From: Candidatus Thorarchaeota archaeon SMTZ1-83 | Lineage (GTDB): Archaea > Asgardarchaeota > Thorarchaeia > Thorarchaeales > Thorarchaeaceae | Direction of reading: 5' to 3' | DNA length: 20,239 nucleotides | NCBI GenBank assembly: GCA_001563325.1 | Contig: LRSK01000237.1 | Coordinates: forward strand, 1 to 20,239 | Shown: positions 835-20,239 of the stretch, one piece after another | Position numbering within the stretch: the stretch's first letter is position 1 | Layout of the letters: every line of letters begins with the position of its first letter | Program-made: the position numbers and the translations under genes | The notes under the pieces: model-generated | Database searches by the model: none | What the model saw: only the letters and a program-made list of their open reading frames with translations | What the model was told of the DNA's origin: nothing

Positions 835-3800
835 CTATGACGGCTCCGCAGGAGGAGGGAGCCTTCTCTCTCCAGCGATCAGAAAGCCGCCGTCTATGGC
901 CTCAAGCACCATCTCATGGGCCTTCAGCTCACTATAACCAAGAAGAATCACTGTCTTGATCATCGCCTCAGGGGTCACCCCATAATCAATACTCATCGAA
1001 TGAAATGCGTCAGCGACTGGGGTCAGATGCTCTGGGAGGTTCTTCCTGACTCCGACGTACCTAGCCAACAGCGAGCCATCGAAGTAGCTGTCGAATATCG
1101 GATCGAAGGTTCGCACGAAGGCCTCAGAGAGTTCGGGAGTGTGGAACATCTGTCTGATTGTGTGGTCCTCATGATCATAAAGCCCGCCGACATCACGGCC
1201 AAAAGTTTCGAGCTGTTTCTTCTGCTGCTCCGAAGCTTGCTCTACAGTCACAATCGCGCAAATGAGTACCTCGGTCTGAACAGCAGTGATTACTTCAGTA
1301 ATCTGTATTGCTGACCAAATCGGTTCGTCCCAAGAGAACTCTGACCTAAATTGGGCAATTGCAGCGATGAATGAGCTGATCATCGACTCATCAAAACCGC
1401 CCTTGAGCACTCTCGAGTATACTGGTAGTCCGATGTTTCGATGGATGACTAAGAGGCTAATCAAGTTCTTGGCGTCCTCAAGTCGTCCTTTCAGGGTTAG
1501 GAGCTCCATGGTTCTACGGGCAGCCTGAGTTGAGAGAAACCTGCGGCCTACCACCCCAATAATGACTGCAGCGCCCAATGCAAGTGCTCCGATTACTCCC
1601 GCTAGAAGAATCGTGACAGTAAGTGCCTGGGGATTCGTTTCAGAACTTAGCACTATGTCTTGGGTCCAAGTTTCGTGGTGGTCCTTTTCGACTGTAATTC
1701 TCACCACATAGAGACCCGGTTTTGGAACCGTTATGTTCGCAAAGTAGACACCACCAACGTAATCGAAATCAGTTCTGTTCAACAGCTCCCCATTCGTTTC
1801 AAAGAGAAGTAGTCTTACCGATGCTCCAGGAATCAAGTACCCAGTATCAGCTGCAAGAGGCTTCAGTTGAAGCGAGAGTTTTGAGCCTTCAAGCTTAGTG
1901 TATGTATTGTTGAGTGCAAATTCGGGATCAAGTCTGATGGGAATCTTGCCCACCATCATGTCGAAGCTAAACGAGCCTTCTTGATATCCTTCAATCTCCA
2001 ACCAGAAGGTTGCGTTCCAATTGCCACTCATTGGAGTGAGCGTAAAACGATACCAGCCATCGCTGGATTCTGCAAAGCTGAAGAAGTCACGAACAGCTGT
2101 CGAGGGAGTAATCCTAGCGCCTGTAATTCCATTCTCAAACGTTGAGTTGTAATAGACCTCAAACTCGTATGTCCGGCTCTCGTAGTAGGTTTCTCTCAAT
2201 CCATACCCAACAACCGTCGTTGGGATTTCTTCGACATCGAATCCGAACGAAGTATCCGCAAACGCGAACCCCTGCTTGTAGAACCTCAAGAACACGGCAT
2301 ATGAACCGACATCTGGAACTCTTATCGAAATACTGTAGAAACCTTGCCCTGCATCTATCCATTCCACAATGGACACAGGATTGTAGGTCACATTCACTGT
2401 CGCGCCCTCGATTCCAACAGATTCTATTGTGCCATAGAATAGTGAGAATGTGTAGGTCTGATTATAATACAAGACTCCTGGGAGTCCAGCTCCTGCAACT
2501 TCAAGTTTTGTCGATACAGCCCCCACGATTAGATAGAGCGAAGTGGCAGCAGTAGCGTGGTTCTGCTTTGCACCAGTGACTGTTATGACGTAAACACCAC
2601 CGAACTCACCGGTGAATCGGATGGAGTAATTGCCGGGTTCACCAGAAACAGGTTGTGTGTCATTGTACTGGAGCCCTCCAAGGGGACCAGTCCATGAGAA
2701 GACGGACACATTTGCGTCCATGATGCCTGTTCCATCCAAGAACATGAATCTGAAAGTGGCCTCGTATGAACCCCCGGGACTGATTTCCACGAACTGGTTC
2801 CCAAGAACTGTCATGACTGTTAGTGTAAGAACATCAACTGTTACGGTGCAGTTGGATTCACTATGATAGGGCATAGTGGCGTTCACGACTATGACGAAGC
2901 TACCGGCTCCAGTAAGAGACGTGTTGAAGTCAGCCTCATACCATCCCTTTGCCAAATTGGGGCTAAACTGTATCTGCATTCCCGACCAGTTGCCAACAAC
3001 ATTGGCCCCGCTCAAGATTGGGTTTCCGTCATCTTGGTCATGAAGGTAGACTGCGACGGTGAAGTTCTCATCAAGCTCAGCCTCCACATGTGGAGTATAG
3101 GAGAAGACCGTCAGTCGGTGACGAACTTCGAAGCCCGTTGAACCAAAAGCCACCTCGGTCCCATTTGTCCAGAAGGCACTGACCAACCATTCCCCCGGTG
3201 TTGCGTTGAATGGACCGAGTGTTCTCCCTACACTCACAATGACAGAACCTGTCATATTACTGTCTACTTCACTAGCCCAAAGATTGTCAGATGGGCCATA
3301 CCATTCCACTTCTAGATCCGAAACTGAAGATGGGGATACAGTCTGAGTGCCAACGATGACTTTGCACCTTATCCTGTTCCCGCTCCAGAAGACATAGTTG
3401 TCCTCCCAGGAACCGACGCCGTATACTTGGGTTGTGATGGTCCTGGCGTAGTTGGGTCCGTTCATTTCCACGGTCCACCAACCGACAGAGTCGACTGCGC
3501 CCATAGGAATCTCAATAGAGCCTAAACCTACTATCGACTGGCCAGTAACCTCGGCTCCAAACGGGTCTTTGATTGAAGCATTCTCCCAATCTGAAGGATG
3601 ATGGATGATGAAGCCAAGATTCTTTGCTTCGGGATATGATTGGATATAGGTGAAGAGAGATAGGTTCGAACTTTGATCAAGTTCAATGAGATATGCAACT
3701 CCCAATGAGTCCAAGCTTGTGGAGAATGAAGAGTTGTACAATCTAGACATCCTACTGACCCTGGCAGAATACTCAAATGAAACCGTAGTGTTGGCCCCAA

Positions 3801-5526
3801 AACTAATGGCTATAGAGGCTCTTCGCCAGTAGGAGTAGTTCAGCAAAGCATAGCCTATGCCTGAGTCTTCTGTAATCTGGGCTGGACCAGTTTCGTCAGA
3901 GTTGACAGAGAGACTGACGCTTTCACATCTTGGTGGCTCTGCAGCGGTGAGAGAAACATCATCCACAAAGAGAGTTACGAACTGACCGTTTGCATTATCT
4001 CCGTCGAGGTCGGGGTCTGTTATGGGAATCTCAACATAGCTAGAGTTCATGTGGACTTCCAAGCTTAGTCTTGCCTGGAAAGTTGCAGGAGCTCCAGGAA
4101 TGCTCAATGCAATCGGTCCTGCGCTGTACCAAATCCCTCTCTGTGTCATGTTCACAGGATCTATCGACCAACTCCATAAGACGGAGGATCCATTGAGAAT
4201 CTCGAGCCCGAACTCAAAGACGTTACTATAGTTGGTGCCGATGGGCCCATGCTGATAGTAGTATTTCAGGCTGAACACAAAATCCTCCGTAGAACCATTG
4301 TTCTGTACGTCTTGGTACCAGTAGATTATGGTGTCATTGTAGTGTCGGTATCCTTCAGGTGTCGATACTGCGTACCCTTCATTCTGCAGGACAACATATT
4401 CCGGGTCGGTGCTGACATATGCAGCCCGTTGGTATCCTCTCCATTCCGTATACTCTCGACGCGCAAGCCATCCGGATGCGTAGTACGTTCCATCCCCACT
4501 CCAGTCTACATTGACACCAGGATTCCCATTCTCGAATGTCCCGTTAAGGACAACTAGCCGCTTCAAGTCTGTGACACTAACGGCAATCTGTTCAGCAATC
4601 CATCCGTTCTCTGCAGCCGGGACGTCTCTGCTGTAAGAGTAGACTCCCTGTGGAGTCAAGTGGGTACTACCGGCGGAGTCCGATAGATCATCTTCAAACT
4701 CATAATAGTGCGTCAGATGAGGTTCTGTTCCTGTTAGCTTCTCTCTGTAGTCACTTGTCAGATCATTTCGACCTCTCTGTATATCGTAATATCTGAAATC
4801 ATCTACACGCCCCTCAACTTGAGTAGTCCTTCCTGCTGAGTTCATTATGTTGTTCTCAGAGTGTAAGCCTACGATGGAGTCGGTCCAAGTGCTTGTTGAC
4901 GCTTCTTCGATGGGCTCTGTGATCTCGTCACCCCAAAGGACCTCAATACTGTCCGAGTTTTCATCCCATGTGATTGCAATGAAGTACCAATGGTCAGGCT
5001 CCCAGTCACTCTTTGAACCTTGGAGAGTTGTGTCCCCGCCCCAGTCTAGCACAATACGACCGCTCGCCCATCGCGTTTCGAAATCATAGTGCTGTCCCCA
5101 GAACCGTCCATTAGGTGCAGTGCCATCCCACTTGATCCACATGGAGATTGTACCCTCTGATGAACCAAAGTCCGCCGAGCCACCTGCACCGACCAAGAAG
5201 TAGCCTCCAGAGCAGTCTGCAGATCGAGTGTTACCAGGGCTTCCTGCGGGCAACCATACCTCAGATTCCGGGGTAGATACAGTGTCGGTTCGTGCGTTCA
5301 GGTACTCAGTAGGACCGGATGCCTCACCTATGTGCTCTACAACCACAGGACTAAGAATGCCTGCTTCAGTGTCAGACTCCAAGTAATCCCGAACCGGAGA
5401 CTTTCCTTCATTTCCGACTCCCTGATAGCATATGTGATTCCATCCATGTAGTATCGGAATGGCCAACGGCATCCAGACTAGAATGAGTGCCATTAACGGT
5501 ATAACCACTGCACGGATTCGAGGCAA
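835..5526 (-). CDS. Giant surface protein: LamG + Ig-like repeats + TM + cytoplasmic longin-like domain
   Basis: This 1563-residue gene starts at TTG, chosen because GGAGG (5538-5534) sits 7 bases upstream. Residues 1-28 form a signal peptide with an Arg pair then a hydrophobic core. Residues about 105-260 look like a LamG/concanavalin-like domain (GTISMWIKWDG, then HWYFIAITWDE, ending VDDFRYYDIQRG). A beta-rich region follows. About 804-1300 are five tandem repeats of 93-107 residues with an Ig-like pattern (aromatic-rich start, G-A-x-V strand, G-x-Y/F near the end). N-x-S/T sequons are frequent, fitting a glycosylated ectodomain. One helix spans about 1301-1326, followed by Arg residues, so the C-terminus is inside. 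Residues about 1354-1475 (NLISLLVIHRNIGLPVYSR start, then a helix and EVLICAIVTVEQ strand) resemble longin/roadblock-type domains. The last 90 residues are mainly helical, possibly winged-helix. I infer a receptor or adhesin linking extracellular binding to a GTPase-type cytoplasmic module; ligand and partner are unknown. Confidence 0.8.
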   Translation of the reverse strand: MPRIRAVVIPLMALILVWMPLAIPILHGWNHICYQGVGNEGKSPVRDYLESDTEAGILSPVVVEHIGEASGPTEYLNARTDTVSTPESEVWLPAGSPGNTRSADCSGGYFLVGAGGSADFGSSEGTISMWIKWDGTAPNGRFWGQHYDFETRWASGRIVLDWGGDTTLQGSKSDWEPDHWYFIAITWDENSDSIEVLWGDEITEPIEEASTSTWTDSIVGLHSENNIMNSAGRTTQVEGRVDDFRYYDIQRGRNDLTSDYREKLTGTEPHLTHYYEFEDDLSDSAGSTHLTPQGVYSYSRDVPAAENGWIAEQIAVSVTDLKRLVVLNGTFENGNPGVNVDWSGDGTYYASGWLARREYTEWRGYQRAAYVSTDPEYVVLQNEGYAVSTPEGYRHYNDTIIYWYQDVQNNGSTEDFVFSLKYYYQHGPIGTNYSNVFEFGLEILNGSSVLWSWSIDPVNMTQRGIWYSAGPIALSIPGAPATFQARLSLEVHMNSSYVEIPITDPDLDGDNANGQFVTLFVDDVSLTAAEPPRCESVSLSVNSDETGPAQITEDSGIGYALLNYSYWRRASIAISFGANTTVSFEYSARVSRMSRLYNSSFSTSLDSLGVAYLIELDQSSNLSLFTYIQSYPEAKNLGFIIHHPSDWENASIKDPFGAEVTGQSIVGLGSIEIPMGAVDSVGWWTVEMNGPNYARTITTQVYGVGSWEDNYVFWSGNRIRCKVIVGTQTVSPSSVSDLEVEWYGPSDNLWASEVDSNMTGSVIVSVGRTLGPFNATPGEWLVSAFWTNGTEVAFGSTGFEVRHRLTVFSYTPHVEAELDENFTVAVYLHDQDDGNPILSGANVVGNWSGMQIQFSPNLAKGWYEADFNTSLTGAGSFVIVVNATMPYHSESNCTVTVDVLTLTVMTVLGNQFVEISPGGSYEATFRFMFLDGTGIMDANVSVFSWTGPLGGLQYNDTQPVSGEPGNYSIRFTGEFGGVYVITVTGAKQNHATAATSLYLIVGAVSTKLEVAGAGLPGVLYYNQTYTFSLFYGTIESVGIEGATVNVTYNPVSIVEWIDAGQGFYSISIRVPDVGSYAVFLRFYKQGFAFADTSFGFDVEEIPTTVVGYGLRETYYESRTYEFEVYYNSTFENGITGARITPSTAVRDFFSFAESSDGWYRFTLTPMSGNWNATFWLEIEGYQEGSFSFDMMVGKIPIRLDPEFALNNTYTKLEGSKLSLQLKPLAADTGYLIPGASVRLLLFETNGELLNRTDFDYVGGVYFANITVPKPGLYVVRITVEKDHHETWTQDIVLSSETNPQALTVTILLAGVIGALALGAAVIIGVVGRRFLSTQAARRTMELLTLKGRLEDAKNLISLLVIHRNIGLPVYSRVLKGGFDESMISSFIAAIAQFRSEFSWDEPIWSAIQITEVITAVQTEVLICAIVTVEQASEQQKKQLETFGRDVGGLYDHEDHTIRQMFHTPELSEAFVRTFDPIFDSYFDGSLLARYVGVRKNLPEHLTPVADAFHSMSIDYGVTPEAMIKTVILLGYSELKAHEMVLEAIDGGFLIAGERRLPPPAEPS

Positions 5527-5533
5527 TCTTTCG

Positions 5534-5538
5534 CCTCC
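5534..5538 (-). promoter_or_regulatory. Shine-Dalgarno site setting a TTG start
   Basis: GGAGG on the minus strand, 7 bases before TTG at 5526-5524. It supports this rare start over the in-frame ATG 11 codons further in, and keeps the basic N-region of the signal peptide. Confidence 0.6.
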
Positions 5539-5715: not shown

Positions 5716-7182
5716 CTAGAGAAGGCCAACCTTCTCGTTGAACTCAGTAATGAGAGAATCAATCTTCGGTACTAGTTCATGGACTCTCTCCCAGTAGCCA
5801 GGGTAGTCATACCACTGCGCGTTTAGCTCATCCAGATTGAATCCCTGCTGCTCAATCCAGGTGAAGTATTTGAGATGATGGATACGCTTTCGGTCGTAGT
5901 GATTCAGTTCAATCATGGCATCCGTCTTTTGACCCATCAAGTATCTATGGAAGTCTTTTATGGCCTTCCCTTTTGTGTATTCTCCAAATGATGTCCTTGC
6001 CTCGATAATGCGGGACTGATACATGTCCATCGAGTCAGTAAAGACTGTGAGAACGACATCATCCTTGGTCAATTCATAGTACTTGGCGAATTTAATCGAC
6101 ATCAGTAGGTTTGCTATGCTAGAGATGCCCAATAGGTCAAGCCTATTGACCAAGTCTGGCGAAACACCAGCCTCTTCAATCAAGTAGCTTCTGCCTGCAG
6201 GCTCATTGAAGAGCCGCATAAGATTCATTGTATCTTCATCGTCTATCGCGATTATCATGTCCGTGTTTCGTACATTGTGAATCCATGGCACATGCTTGTC
6301 ACCGATTCCCTCAATCCTGTGTGCGCCGTAGCCATTGAGCCAGAGTGTCGGACACTGTACTGCTTCCCCGGCCGCTATCTTTGATGTGGGATAGATTCGC
6401 TTCATGAAATCGCCGCATGCAATAGTGCCTGCGGAACCGGTGGTCAGACAGACACCGGCATACCTGTCACCACCCAGTTCCTTCTCAAGAACTTCTTTCA
6501 TTGCATTTCCGGTCACATCATAATGATAGAGACTGTTGCCAAACTCAGAGAACTGATTAAAGATGAAGATGTCATCCCTCGTTCGTCTTAGCTCCCAGCA
6601 CTTGTCATAGATCTCCTTGACGTTACTCTCTGAGCCTGGCGTCTTGATGATCTCGCCAGCAACCGTGGCAAGCCAGTCAAACCTTTCTTGGGACATCTCT
6701 TCGGGGAGGATTGCTACGCTCTCACAAGCCAATAGAGTCGCGTCATACGCACCACCGCGGCAGTAGTTTCCGGTGGATGGCCATACAGCCTTATGCTTAG
6801 TCGGGTCAAACTGCCCGGTCACCAGTGGAGGTACGAGACAACCGAATGTGGCTCCAACCTTATGCGCTCCCGTCGGGAACCATTTGCCTACCAACGCTAT
6901 GATCCGAGCCTCAACTCCTGAAAGCTCAGGTGGGATCTCCATGTAATTGGCTAAGGACCTGAAGAGACCCCCCTTCTCCTTGGGCTCATTCTTCCAAGTG
7001 ATTCGAAACAGGTTCTGAGGGACTATATCCCAGAGCCCGATTTCCTTGAGCTCATCATTGATTCTTCCTGGAGTCTTGGAAGGCTCCTTTAGCTGATCGA
7101 AGGTAGGGATTACAATGTTTCTCTCTTTGCAGCGTTGAACGGTGCGCTTCAGCTGTTCTTCATTCATGGTGAGGTCGATCAT
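5716..7182 (-). CDS. TrpB/cysteine-synthase-fold PLP-dependent enzyme, reaction unassigned
   Basis: This is a fold-type II pyridoxal-phosphate enzyme of about 488 residues. The Schiff-base lysine is probably in WFPTGAHKVGATFG (Lys108 counted from ATG 7182), which resembles the HK motif of tryptophan synthase beta more than the SxK motif of cysteine synthase. WPSTGNYCRGGAYD matches the substrate-loop position, and TTGSAGT is a plausible phosphate-binding loop. It is longer than TrpB or CysK (about 310-400), with an extended C-terminal part rich in Tyr and Trp. Members I recall are annotated only as PLP-dependent beta-subunit-like or cysteine-synthase-family proteins, so I give no reaction. Start: ATG 7182 has GAGG 8 bases upstream. 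An ATG at 7233 would add 17 residues and could be a leaderless start, because a TATA-like box lies about 25 bases before it. The gene diverges from pyruvate phosphate dikinase. Confidence 0.82.
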   Translation of the reverse strand: MIDLTMNEEQLKRTVQRCKERNIVIPTFDQLKEPSKTPGRINDELKEIGLWDIVPQNLFRITWKNEPKEKGGLFRSLANYMEIPPELSGVEARIIALVGKWFPTGAHKVGATFGCLVPPLVTGQFDPTKHKAVWPSTGNYCRGGAYDATLLACESVAILPEEMSQERFDWLATVAGEIIKTPGSESNVKEIYDKCWELRRTRDDIFIFNQFSEFGNSLYHYDVTGNAMKEVLEKELGGDRYAGVCLTTGSAGTIACGDFMKRIYPTSKIAAGEAVQCPTLWLNGYGAHRIEGIGDKHVPWIHNVRNTDMIIAIDDEDTMNLMRLFNEPAGRSYLIEEAGVSPDLVNRLDLLGISSIANLLMSIKFAKYYELTKDDVVLTVFTDSMDMYQSRIIEARTSFGEYTKGKAIKDFHRYLMGQKTDAMIELNHYDRKRIHHLKYFTWIEQQGFNLDELNAQWYDYPGYWERVHELVPKIDSLITEFNEKVGLL

Positions 7183-7251
7183 TGTTCTTGCCTCAGGTTT
7201 TGTCACTCCCGGGATGCAGGTCTGACAGGTCACTCAGAGAGAAGGCATGTT

Positions 7252-7363: not shown

Positions 7364-7447
7364 CCGGTATCTGTTGATTCCAGAGAGATTCGCTCCGAGC
7401 GCTGTGCGAATTGAATGGGGCTGCGCGGCTTTGATAGTCTGACAGTT

Positions 7448-9571
7448 ATGACGGAGAAGAAGGTAGATACGTTGGAAAAACGCGTTTACAAATTCGGTGC
7501 AGGGAAGGCTGATGGAAAAGCGGACATGAAGAACGAATTGGGGGGAAAGGGTGCTTCTCTGGCAGGAGCAACTCTGTTAGGGTTGCCAGTCCCGCCGGGA
7601 TTCACAATCTCCACTGACGTTTGCAATGATTATCTTGAAACCGGAGGGCTTACAGACGAAGTGAAGTCCGAAGCCAAGAAAGCCCTTGCTTGGGTGGAGA
7701 AGATACTTGGAAAGAAGTTCGGTGATCCAAAGAACCCCCTCCTAGTATCCTGTCGGTCTGGTGCAAGACAGAGTATGCCTGGAATGATGGAAACGGTCCT
7801 CAACGTTGGTCTCACGACTGAAACGCTACCTGGACTGATTGAAGCATCAGGGGATGAGAGATTCGCCTACGACTCCTACAGACGTCTGATCATGATGTAT
7901 TCTGACGTCGTGATGGAGAAGGCGGAGGGGATAGAACCCGAAGAGGGTCAGGGTGTCAGACAGCAGCTGGAATGGATACTCGCGAAGAAGAAGAGAGAAT
8001 CAGGTAGACTTAGCGATACTGATCTTACAGTCGAAGACCTGAAGGGACTGTGTGTCGAGTTCAAGGAGAGAGTCAAGCTGACATTGGGGAAGGAATTCCC
8101 TGATGACCCCTACAACCAACTTTGGGGTGCAATTGGAGGGGTCTTCAAGAGCTGGTGGGGCAATCGTGCTGTTGCCTACAGGCGTATTGAGAATATCCCA
8201 GATGAGTGGGGGACGGCTTGCACCGTGCAGTCGATGGTATTCGGCAACCTTGGTGAGGATTCTGCCACCGGAGTGGCGTTCACAAGAGACCCAGCCACGG
8301 GCGAGAATCTGTACTATGGTGAGTGCCTATTCAACGCACAAGGAGAAGATGTTGTTGCCGGAATCCGAACTCCGAATCCGATGAACGAAGAGAGCAAGAA
8401 CGAACAGAACAAGCACCTGCCAACTCTTCAGGAGAGGATGCCTGGGCTCTATGCAGAACTGTGTAGCATACGAGATACGCTTGAAGATGATGTCAAAGAT
8501 ATGCTAGACTTGGAGTTCACTATTGAGAGGAACAGGCTCTTCCTGGTTCAACACAGAGTCGGCAAGAGAACGGCGACTGCCGCTTTGAATATCGCAATGG
8601 ACATGCTTGACAGCGGTATGATTGACAGACCGACTGCAGTCATGAGAGTACACCCCGAACAGCTTGGTCAGCTCCTTTATCCTGTCATAGACCCCGAGGC
8701 AGAGAAGGATGAAACTCCAATCGCCCAAGGTCTTCCTGCAGGCCCAGGAGGGGCCGTCGGCCAGATTGTGTTCACACAGGAGGACGCTGTAAAATGGGCG
8801 AGTCAAGAGAAGAAGGTCATTCTCGTTCGTGAGGAAACCAGCCCTGAAGACATCGAAGGAATGCGGTCCGCGGTTGGCATACTCACCGCACGCGGAGGCA
8901 TGACAAGTCACGCAGCACTTGTCACGCGGGGTTGGGGGAAAACCTGCATCGTTGGTGCGTCAGCGTTGGAGATTGACCCCTTCGACAAGAGTATGTCTGT
9001 TAATGGTGTGATTTACAGGCAGGGAGACACGATTACTCTCAACGGTACTAGGGGCCTCGTCTACAAGGGCGAGCTACCGATGATGGACTCGACTAGAAAT
9101 CCCAGACTTCTTGAGTTCATGGAAATGATTGATCAATTCAGAAAGATGGGAGTCAGGGCCAACGCTGAAACTCCAGAGGACGCCCGGACTGCTCTGGACT
9201 TCGGAGCCGAAGGGATAGGACTCTTCAGGACAGAACACATGTTCTATGGGGAGGGCTCCGATGAGCCTCTCTTCCTTCTAAGAAAGATGATTCTGAGTAA
9301 GACAAGGGCAGAAAGGAGAGCCGCGTTGGATGAGCTATCACCCTATGTGAAACGCGACATCAAGTCAACCCTTGAAGTGATGGACGGTCTGCCCGTCACG
9401 ATAAGACTTCTTGATCCGCCACTTCATGAGTTCGTGCCTCAAAGCCGAATTGGACAGGAAAGACTTGCTCACTCATTGGGGATAAGCGTGGAAGAGGTTC
9501 GAACAAGAGGTGAGGCCCTTCACGAGAGCAATCCAATGATGGGTCATGAGGTTGGCAATCACATACCCTGA
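7448..9571 (+). CDS. ppdK: Pyruvate phosphate dikinase, N-terminal fragment ending at a frameshift
   Basis: PPDK interconverts pyruvate + ATP + phosphate and PEP + AMP + pyrophosphate, linking glycolysis and gluconeogenesis in the cytosol. The fragment carries the ATP-grasp domain (MKNELGGKGASLAGATLLG start; CRSGARQSMPGMMETVLN; TGVAFTRDPATGE), the swivelling phosphohistidine domain (RGGMTSHAALVTRGWG, His488 counted from ATG 7448) and the first half of the PEP/pyruvate barrel (GIGLFRTEHMFY; TIRLLDPPLHEFVP). At NPMMGH the frame is lost: PPDKs continue with an RGxRL motif, but here the frame runs into seven unrelated residues and stops. Start: the ATG at 7448 gives MTEKKVDTLEKRVYKFG, a normal family N-terminus. 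An upstream in-frame ATG at 7415 would add 11 residues without support. Protein from this fragment alone should be inactive. Confidence 0.9.
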   Translation: MTEKKVDTLEKRVYKFGAGKADGKADMKNELGGKGASLAGATLLGLPVPPGFTISTDVCNDYLETGGLTDEVKSEAKKALAWVEKILGKKFGDPKNPLLVSCRSGARQSMPGMMETVLNVGLTTETLPGLIEASGDERFAYDSYRRLIMMYSDVVMEKAEGIEPEEGQGVRQQLEWILAKKKRESGRLSDTDLTVEDLKGLCVEFKERVKLTLGKEFPDDPYNQLWGAIGGVFKSWWGNRAVAYRRIENIPDEWGTACTVQSMVFGNLGEDSATGVAFTRDPATGENLYYGECLFNAQGEDVVAGIRTPNPMNEESKNEQNKHLPTLQERMPGLYAELCSIRDTLEDDVKDMLDLEFTIERNRLFLVQHRVGKRTATAALNIAMDMLDSGMIDRPTAVMRVHPEQLGQLLYPVIDPEAEKDETPIAQGLPAGPGGAVGQIVFTQEDAVKWASQEKKVILVREETSPEDIEGMRSAVGILTARGGMTSHAALVTRGWGKTCIVGASALEIDPFDKSMSVNGVIYRQGDTITLNGTRGLVYKGELPMMDSTRNPRLLEFMEMIDQFRKMGVRANAETPEDARTALDFGAEGIGLFRTEHMFYGEGSDEPLFLLRKMILSKTRAERRAALDELSPYVKRDIKSTLEVMDGLPVTIRLLDPPLHEFVPQSRIGQERLAHSLGISVEEVRTRGEALHESNPMMGHEVGNHIP

Positions 9572-10184
9572 AGTGTACGAGATGCAAATCCGGGCCATTT
9601 TGGACGCAGCCGTCGAACTCAAGAGGGAGGGCAAGAAAGTGCTGCTTGAAATCATGATTCCAGTGACCATAGGGTCCGCTGAGCTTAAGCACATGAAGAT
9701 GCGTGTAGATGCCCTATACGAGAAGTTCAAACAGGAAACCGGGGAGGAGGTAGATTTTCTTTACGGAACCATGATTGAGATACCTAGGGCGTGCATGCGG
9801 GCAGGTGACATGGCAGAAAGTGCAGAGTTCTTCTCATTCGGCACCAATGACTTGAGTCAGATGGGATTCGGCTTCAGTCGTGACGACATCGGCTCTTTCC
9901 TGCCAGACTATCTGGATGGCCACATCCTGAGGAATGACCCCTTCCAGAGCATTGACAAGCGTGGCATTGGACAGCTCATGCAGATTGCCATTGAGAGAGG
10001 CAGAAAGACCCGACCAGGGATGAAGATTGGAGTCTGCGGTGAACACGGGGGAGACCCCAGGTCTGTTGAGTTCTTCTACAAGATAGGTCTGGACTATGTT
10101 TCATGCTCTCCATATCGCTTGCCGATTGCCCGGTTGGCGGCTGCCCAGGCCGCCATAAAGGAGGAGCGGGGGGAGCTCGAGTAG
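9546..10184 (+). CDS. ppdK: Pyruvate phosphate dikinase, C-terminal fragment after the frameshift
   Basis: This frame continues the PEP/pyruvate TIM barrel in the next reading frame, starting inside the conserved RLAITYPEVYEMQ segment. It holds the rest of the active site: GTMIEIPRA with the catalytic Glu, FFSFGTNDLSQM with the Asn-Asp pair, and GVCGEHGGDP with the acid/base Cys (Cys164 of this fragment). The end is normal for the family. No further stops or damaged motifs are seen, so the break is recent or an assembly artefact. The ATG at 9546 is simply a codon inside the old gene; no ribosome site of note precedes it, so it is unlikely to be a separate gene. Together the two parts give about 915 residues, slightly above the usual 870-890. 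Confidence 0.88.
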   Translation: MRLAITYPEVYEMQIRAILDAAVELKREGKKVLLEIMIPVTIGSAELKHMKMRVDALYEKFKQETGEEVDFLYGTMIEIPRACMRAGDMAESAEFFSFGTNDLSQMGFGFSRDDIGSFLPDYLDGHILRNDPFQSIDKRGIGQLMQIAIERGRKTRPGMKIGVCGEHGGDPRSVEFFYKIGLDYVSCSPYRLPIARLAAAQAAIKEERGELE

Positions 10185-19161: not shown

Positions 19162-20239
19162 TCACTCCATCCCGACACCGCTTCCCGCATACCTGTCCAT
19201 CCGGCCTGTGACTGCCAGCCAGGAAACGAGGAAGCTAATAGTGACCAAGGCATACGCTGGGTCAACACCGGGGAGGTTCAGTAGCATAAAGGGTATGCGA
19301 ATGACAAGGAAGAGGAGAACCCCTAGTCCTATGCCCAGTGGTCTTAGTCGTCCAGGTGCACCAATTTTCCTCATTCGAGACCATACCCGTGTGAATAGGG
19401 CAACTGGAATGAGAAAGAGAATGAGAAGCGGGATCACCAACCAAATGATGGACAAGAAGACTTCCTCTAGAGGCGTCGGAAACTGTTGAATGAACAAAAT
19501 CAATAGGGGGACATACAACACGAGAGGCACTAGACCAGCGCTTCTGTATCCTGCAGCGTAGATAGCAGTCGCCGACAGCAGTGTCAGTGCCAACCCTATT
19601 GACAAGAACTCTATGTAGATGGCTTCGTCTGTGGGTATGTTACCGAAGTTCCCCAACAGCCCTGAAACCTGACCCAAGGCGAACAGCCCAAAAGCGAGAA
19701 GCATCAAGAGCGTCGGTAGTTGTCGGGACTCTCGGAATCGGCCATACAGATATGCAAACGTGCCTGTTGCCAACATTATTGCCAACGAAGCGAACGAAAC
19801 AATGAACAGTAGGATGAGGTCAGGGATGAAGGCTTGGGTCTGGAGTCCTGATATTACCAGAATTGGGCCAGCAAAGCTACCACCGTATCCTAGCAGCTCA
19901 AACGAAACTACCTGTTCCGGCCTCAAGAATGTGAAGGCCACCATGGCCGGGCCCATGAGCGTGATGAAGAGTATGATAAGAATGACAGAGTAGGGCAGAC
20001 TGAATCCCTCATAGTACCCTGGATCCTCAAGAATGGTGCCATATAGCTCTGGCAGATTGGCGATCTGCGAGAGCAGTGCGAATGCCATTGCAGCGGTTGT
20101 GCCCCTCCTTGTATCGTAGGCAATCCATAGGAAGATTGCCGCTACACCGGCCAGCATGAAGGATCGTACGAGAGACCCGAAGTCAAAAAGGAAGTTGGCG
20201 AAGATGCTGACTCTTGAAGCAAGAGTGATGTTGATAGAC
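19162..20239 (-). CDS. Multi-spanning membrane protein of unknown function, N-terminus cut by window edge
   Basis: The frame stays open to the right edge: codons beyond the internal ATG at 20157 continue without a stop for another 27 codons and read as plausible protein (for example NITLASRVSIFANFLF). The visible part is therefore at least 358 residues and probably starts outside the window; ATG 20157 is a less likely start. About ten hydrophobic helices are visible, joined by short loops, with charged loops such as YDTRRG, YGRFRESRQ and WSRMRKIGAPGRLRP that suggest cytoplasmic sides. I recognise no family motif, no cofactor ligands and no extramembrane domain. It is convergent with the flavoprotein gene, separated by 70 bases. 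No function is assigned. Confidence 0.7.
   Translation of the reverse strand, partial: SINITLASRVSIFANFLFDFGSLVRSFMLAGVAAIFLWIAYDTRRGTTAAMAFALLSQIANLPELYGTILEDPGYYEGFSLPYSVILIILFITLMGPAMVAFTFLRPEQVVSFELLGYGGSFAGPILVISGLQTQAFIPDLILLFIVSFASLAIMLATGTFAYLYGRFRESRQLPTLLMLLAFGLFALGQVSGLLGNFGNIPTDEAIYIEFLSIGLALTLLSATAIYAAGYRSAGLVPLVLYVPLLILFIQQFPTPLEEVFLSIIWLVIPLLILFLIPVALFTRVWSRMRKIGAPGRLRPLGIGLGVLLFLVIRIPFMLLNLPGVDPAYALVTISFLVSWLAVTGRMDRYAGSGVGME

Follow-up and report, generated by a model that had tools for sequence, protein, structure and literature searches.

A candidate Thorarchaeota surface receptor joining a LamG and Ig-like ectodomain to a predicted longin-type cytoplasmic tail

Small GTPases and longin or roadblock proteins are numerous in Asgard archaea, yet little is known of the cues they answer to. 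Could one such domain form the inner end of a protein that faces the outside of the cell? The question is raised by a gene in contig LRSK01000237.1 (assembly GCA_001563325.1) of Candidatus Thorarchaeota archaeon SMTZ1-83, whose 20,239 analysed nucleotides we call the window. A sequence-only reading had reported, at 835..5526, a receptor with a LamG-like domain, five Ig-like repeats, one membrane helix and a tail resembling longin or roadblock folds. The gene proves to be a real open reading frame (ORF) of 1563 residues with homologues (minus strand, 5526-835, start codon TTG), and its receptor-like layout is borne out by hydropathy and by the predicted fold of the tail, with three corrections to the anatomy. 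We favour, at a probability of roughly 0.5, a surface receptor or adhesin whose longin domain is a docking platform probably recruiting or regulating a small GTPase. The anatomy is well supported and we hold it with high confidence; coupling of the tail to a GTPase is, in our judgement, an even bet at best. The elements of the gene, in the order of the protein, are the following:

5534..5538, minus strand: GGAGG, ribosome-binding-site-like, 7 nt upstream of the TTG start, as read from the sequence
5449..5526, minus strand: signal peptide, residues 1-26 (R3 and R5, hydrophobic stretch next; hydropathy maximum 2.50 at residue 7)
4777..5175, minus strand: LamG/ConA-like domain, residues 118-250 (Pfam PF13385, Laminin_G_3)
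3121..4569, minus strand: conserved middle ectodomain, residues about 320-802 (coverage 0.96-1.00; 35-63% identity per 50-residue block)
2833..3120, minus strand: conserved unit, residues 803-898, with no demonstrable kinship to the repeats (hhalign at most 2.4% against the four repeats)
2521..2832, minus strand: Ig-like repeat, residues 899-1002, weak Big_1 match (hhalign 87.9% with 1003-1100)
2227..2520, minus strand: Ig-like repeat, residues 1003-1100 (hhalign 98.6% with 1101-1193, 88.5% with 1194-1298)
1948..2226, minus strand: Ig-like repeat, residues 1101-1193 (hhalign 98.6% with 1003-1100)
1633..1947, minus strand: Ig-like repeat, residues 1194-1298 (hhalign 88.5% with 1003-1100, 41.8% with 899-1002)
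1549..1626, minus strand: transmembrane helix, residues 1301-1326, then RR (hydropathy 2.58; sequon asymmetry in the family)
1465..1524, minus strand: predicted juxtamembrane helix, residues 1335-1354, leading into the first longin strand (tail-model residues 2-21)
1066..1467, minus strand: predicted longin domain, residues 1354-1487
838..1062, minus strand: predicted winged-helix-like C-terminal domain, residues 1489-1563

Hydropathy places two clear hydrophobic segments in the protein, at the N-terminus and at 1299-1332 (best 19-mer 1308-1326, mean 2.58); one further 19-mer, within the tail, scores marginally (1.65) and coincides with strands of the predicted model. With residues 1285-1563 as query, 61 proteins were retrieved (E ≤ 0.001; worst E 3e-56), 60 of them others, P0001 being identical to the window protein and possibly its own record; their named sources are Thorarchaeota, Sifarchaeia or Promethearchaeota. 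A similar hydrophobic N-terminal segment occurs in many of the homologues listed; others are without it or start later. Over the 61 proteins, which are related and hence not independent counts, N-X-S/T sequons reach 2.09 per 100 residues before the transmembrane segment (1336 against 695 expected from shuffling) and 0.17 after it (23 against 48), 42 of the tails having none. A sequon-rich N-terminal part and a sequon-poor tail fit an N-terminal part outside and a tail inside. The helix at 1301-1326, read earlier as membrane-spanning, thus holds on its hydropathy, the trailing RR and the sequon asymmetry, and together with the signal segment and the placement of the transmembrane segment in paralogues this gives the predicted layout of a single-pass membrane receptor with a cytoplasmic C-terminus.

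The predicted model of the tail has a predicted local distance difference test (pLDDT) score of 82.6 and, in tail-model numbering, strands at 22-29 and 35-40, a helix at 47-63, strands at 73-75, 80-84 and 88-94, and helices at 100-117, 121-129 and 131-148, i.e., the beta2-alpha-beta3-alpha-alpha topology of longins. Its similarity to solved longin domains stands above that to other folds. Roadblock domains have a helix before strand 1 and no second C-terminal helix; in the model a helix does precede strand 1, but as a continuation of the juxtamembrane one, and more helices come after. Model topology and structural ranking together placed roadblock behind longin as first fold assignment. Residues 1489-1563 find their best structural matches among winged helices, many from DNA-binding proteins. 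The model therefore supports a longin-type rather than a roadblock fold, with a second C-terminal domain: the longin/roadblock-like tail of the sequence-only reading survives as longin-type by prediction, but not as a single domain. An arginine-finger role for R1394, invariant in alignment A1, was considered and dropped, many distant relatives having another residue there; the arginine fingers of GATOR1 and folliculin presumably sit in another loop. NPRL2 and DENN chains are absent from the structural match lists, which counts neither way.

An indirect path through soluble longins leads to the same place. The tail alignment matches that of 11 soluble longin ORFs (alignment A6) with an hhalign probability of 96.5% (E 7e-10, 140 columns), and 5 of these 11 match Pfam Fuz_longin_1 (FUZ, MON1, HPS1) at E ≤ 1 (best 0.0053), the shown member with such a match scoring under the cut-off. 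This path agrees with the structural result and leaves the subfamily unproven. Against the sequences of solved structures, neither the tail nor the A6 profile found a longin; the only related row for A6 was a roadblock chain (E 0.52), and a TRAPPC3 chain matching the tail, also at E 0.52, was treated as chance. Members of the soluble A6 family (L119, L118, L120-L123, L090, L091, L094) are about 300 residues long and have their longin at the N-terminus, with a weak match to the FUZ/MON1/HPS1 longin model; the second half is conserved, of unassigned fold and perhaps another longin-like domain. Tandem pairs occur in L090 and L123.

How widely does the tail occur, and behind which ectodomains? One genome per species (84,980 species) was scanned with two degenerate tail patterns, and 36 loci were found to encode a relative (35 titled Thorarchaeota, 1 Lokiarchaeota). 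The tail profile matches 168 of 227 genomes in the phylum of genome G002 (E ≤ 0.001), with 2-7 matches per genome in eight Thorarchaeota genomes, weak partial matches counted; outside the close relatives, the matches listed are mostly weak, with E of about 1e-4 to 1e-11, and are confined to the longin part. We classed 104 distinct ORFs with a profile match at E ≤ 1e-6 (140 before duplicates were dropped), drawn in part from 40 further regions hand-picked among the matches listed, many for long open frames, so that their transmembrane fraction is not a phylum-wide rate. A transmembrane segment (hydropathy over 1.6) stands directly before the tail in 80; 12 have no such segment and 12 have under 40 residues upstream of the tail. 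Those 24, as read, break down into 8 close paralogues whose segment is weaker (1.19-1.58), 7 N-terminal-longin proteins of about 300 residues, 5 fragments and 4 ORFs without the segment (L104, L117, L132 and the 351-residue L118).

The ectodomain profile of the window matches all 57 distinct close relatives with over 300 residues before the tail and only 4 of 28 distant ones, a miss being no proof of a different ectodomain. Among the 24 unmatched distant relatives, 21 have a transmembrane segment and three (L104, L117, L132) do not. The tail is clearly the constant part of the proteins, and its fusion to other ectodomains, for which a search had been suggested, is supported in other Asgard genomes. 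Tail-only protein searches gave no clear case of the close tail in soluble form; the matches, not each of which was checked, are short proteins, mostly on contigs of a few kb, which by appearance resemble gene fragments.

Some relatives are worth describing in their own right. Two or three longin-tailed genes stand in tandem in G002:C54 (three), G201:C127, G206:C23, G213:C195 and G218:C103, which suggests local duplication. L104:1365-4424 (G088) encodes a 1019-residue protein without a transmembrane segment, in which an FG-GAP propeller (BBS7 and ITFG2 model matches), PCI/winged-helix matches, a longin of the tail type and a zinc ribbon form a set that, by its domain matches, is reminiscent of BBSome/KICSTOR parts. 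In L095:4028-6052 (G005, Thorarchaeota), which encodes a 674-residue protein also without a transmembrane segment, TPR repeats are combined with a longin of the tail type at the C-terminus.

The ectodomain follows the order claimed by the sequence-only reading in outline, but a conserved region at about 320-800, shared by long and short forms of the protein, had been omitted. The LamG-like domain is sustained by a Laminin_G_3 match at 118-250 (E 8.3e-5; 23.2 bits, below the curated cut-off of 27.6) and by precomputed PF13385 annotation in 11 of the 61 proteins; residues 101-150 have 74% identity to homologues. As for the five Ig-like repeats, profile comparison joins four (899-1298) into a chain by way of 1003-1100. 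Direct links are missing for two of their six pairs (899-1002 with 1101-1193, 3.1%; 1101-1193 with 1194-1298, 0.7%), and the fifth unit, 803-898, is unlinked, the highest non-repeat control pair reaching 9.5%. Pfam scans of the window protein and 19 locus proteins tie the repeats to Ig-like families at E ≤ 0.1: Big_1 in 13 of the 20, Filamin in 11 and Invasin_D3 in 8, the Big_1 match of the window (919-993, E 0.043) lying below the cut-off.

By length, the 61 proteins comprise 24 long (over 1450 residues), 34 short (1050-1250) and 3 others. The short class is without residues about 901-1250 (coverage 0.03, and 0.10 for 1251-1300) and retains the LamG region, the middle and the tail. The orthologous locus is marked by a conserved neighbour:

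5716..7233, minus strand: gene for a pyridoxal phosphate-dependent enzyme (PALP, Pfam PF00291)

This gene adjoins the tail gene in seven loci, long (L003, L010) and short (L005, L007, L008, L009, L012), so the repeat block has been gained or lost between orthologues; a dikinase is also present in five of the seven. Of the remaining five among the closest loci, three (L002, L004, L006) are short contigs ending within the gene, L001 lacks any ectodomain match ahead of its tail, and L011, at 45% identity, is a divergent paralogue. In the window, the pyruvate-phosphate-dikinase-like gene lies in two overlapping plus-strand frames (7415-9571 and 9546-10184) that split its C-terminal phosphoenolpyruvate-binding domain, which, judged from the frames, is a frameshift, genomic or from the assembly. 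A 331-residue protein encoded at 19162-20157 (minus strand) is, by eye, rich in hydrophobic segments, and no Pfam model matches it at E ≤ 1e-5.

How might such a protein work? Anatomy, predicted fold, conservation and Asgard-wide recurrence with different ectodomains were computed; dimerisation, GTPase docking, signal transmission and ligand class, and with them a signalling or trafficking role, we infer from what longin and roadblock families do. The LamG domain, middle region and Ig-like stalk would be exposed outside the cell, and the single helix would span the membrane and extend as the juxtamembrane helix into the cytoplasmic longin and the winged-helix-like domain after it. The most likely role of the longin would be that of a docking platform on the inner membrane face, where it would probably form a homodimer or pair with a further subunit of longin or roadblock type. 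Binding outside, to a glycan, a partner cell or a surface, may gather or reorient the platforms, which may then recruit or regulate a small GTPase of the Ras/Rab/Arf/Rag kind and so couple contact to remodelling of the membrane or cytoskeleton.

Several observations weigh against this reading. Longin domains also work in SNAREs and coats without GTPase regulation. The tail model is weakest (block means 61-64) around 41-70, the site of the first longin helix, the Foldseek TM-scores are modest (TMq 0.2-0.37 among the rows listed), and roadblock chains also match, ranked below longins. Curated Pfam longin models reach none of 33 tails at E ≤ 1, so the fold rests on predicted structure and the indirect profile link. 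The proximity to small GTPases that the sequence-only reading proposed to test is not supported: in a motif scan of the 36 loci (475 kb), its sensitivity not measured, a single locus, L011, had a GTPase, and the window had none. This is despite 22-32 Ras-model matches in each of eight Thorarchaeota genomes, some of which are other GTPases, since 11 of the 14 control genomes, E. coli for one, also give matches to the model. Among the Ras-model matches listed (of 213), only one GTPase lies no more than 10 kb from a tail gene, at G005:C67, the place of L011. A neighbouring GTPase gene is, however, not a strict requirement for a regulator.

If GTPase action is set aside, the tail could instead be a sorting or anchoring adaptor that binds adaptin-, ESCRT- or cytoskeleton-like proteins and sets location, uptake or shedding. 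We regard this as doubtful but worth keeping in view: the structural matches include AP sigma/mu and COPI longins, and in the distant relatives L104 and L132 the longin shares its protein with PCI/winged-helix and FG-GAP/BBS7/ITFG2-like domains. Asgard proteins described in PMC11188069 (this and the papers below being cited from excerpts) join longin with Vps28-C, adaptin appendage, Ig-like or helix-turn-helix/PCI domains. Coat longins, however, are one branch among many tied structural matches, and a scan of 10 neighbouring ORFs, one of them without a match, turned up no adaptor or ESCRT gene. It is unlikely that the protein is purely structural, with the ectodomain as stalk or coat and a tail that merely dimerises or anchors. 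The large, sequon-rich repeat ectodomain, its coming and going repeat block and the several profile matches per Thorarchaeota genome would suit such a role, but conservation of the longin core roughly equals that of the best ectodomain block, and the core is retained where the ectodomain is unrecognisable, which a passive anchor would hardly need. Least likely of all, and very improbable in our view, is a membrane-bound transcription regulator whose winged-helix-like domain binds DNA with the longin as spacer or sensor, an idea to which the matches of 1489-1563 to DNA-binding proteins give some footing.

The receptor reading can also be set against known systems. Longin SNAREs (Sec22b, VAMP7, Ykt6) run from longin to SNARE motif to C-terminal anchor and have no large ectodomain; here an ectodomain of about 1300 residues and the helix 1301-1326 come first, the longin begins about 28 residues past the helix, and the winged-helix-like domain follows with no later transmembrane segment. 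The FUZ/MON1/HPS1 family, whose members form Rab guanine nucleotide exchange factor complexes, consists of soluble multi-longin proteins, whereas the tail has one longin, is membrane-anchored and has no direct sequence match to them. In the excerpts, the Asgard longin, roadblock and TRAPPC3-like proteins of PMC10933270 are small domain proteins or GTPase fusions, and the word "transmembrane" is absent from the main text. The multidomain longin proteins of PMC11188069 are alike in combining longin with other domains, Ig-like included, but they carry Vps28-C or SB domains, are discussed as ESCRT-linked, and no layout of signal peptide, ectodomain, transmembrane helix and longin is described in those excerpts. 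Actinobacterial conservons (PMC13343842) offer a works-like analogy, a sensor-type protein (CvnA) being coupled to roadblock CvnB and the Ras-like GTPase CvnD; those are separate genes of one operon that includes the GTPase, whereas here there is one fused protein and no GTPase nearby. Longin-like domains number 41 in the first Loki genome, some of them GTPase-fused (PMC4917890), and longin families are enriched in a cultured Lokiarchaeon with numerous surface proteins on its cells (PMC9834061). Asgard longin abundance is thus already known; we recognised no description of the receptor layout in the open-access full-text literature searched, most subscription papers lying outside its scope.

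With a longin held at the membrane by a helix that follows a large external domain, a design repeated in the Asgard phylum with different heads, these proteins offer a concrete and testable surface link to eukaryote-like machinery. More tentatively, and with the odds rather against it, they could be transmembrane receptors of a class spread across the Asgard phylum, their variable ectodomains all connected to one shared type of longin platform by which small GTPases are switched. If true, this would place Ras/Rab/Arf/Rag-type GTPases of a prokaryote under outside-in control, predating eukaryotic receptor-GTPase signalling and membrane traffic.
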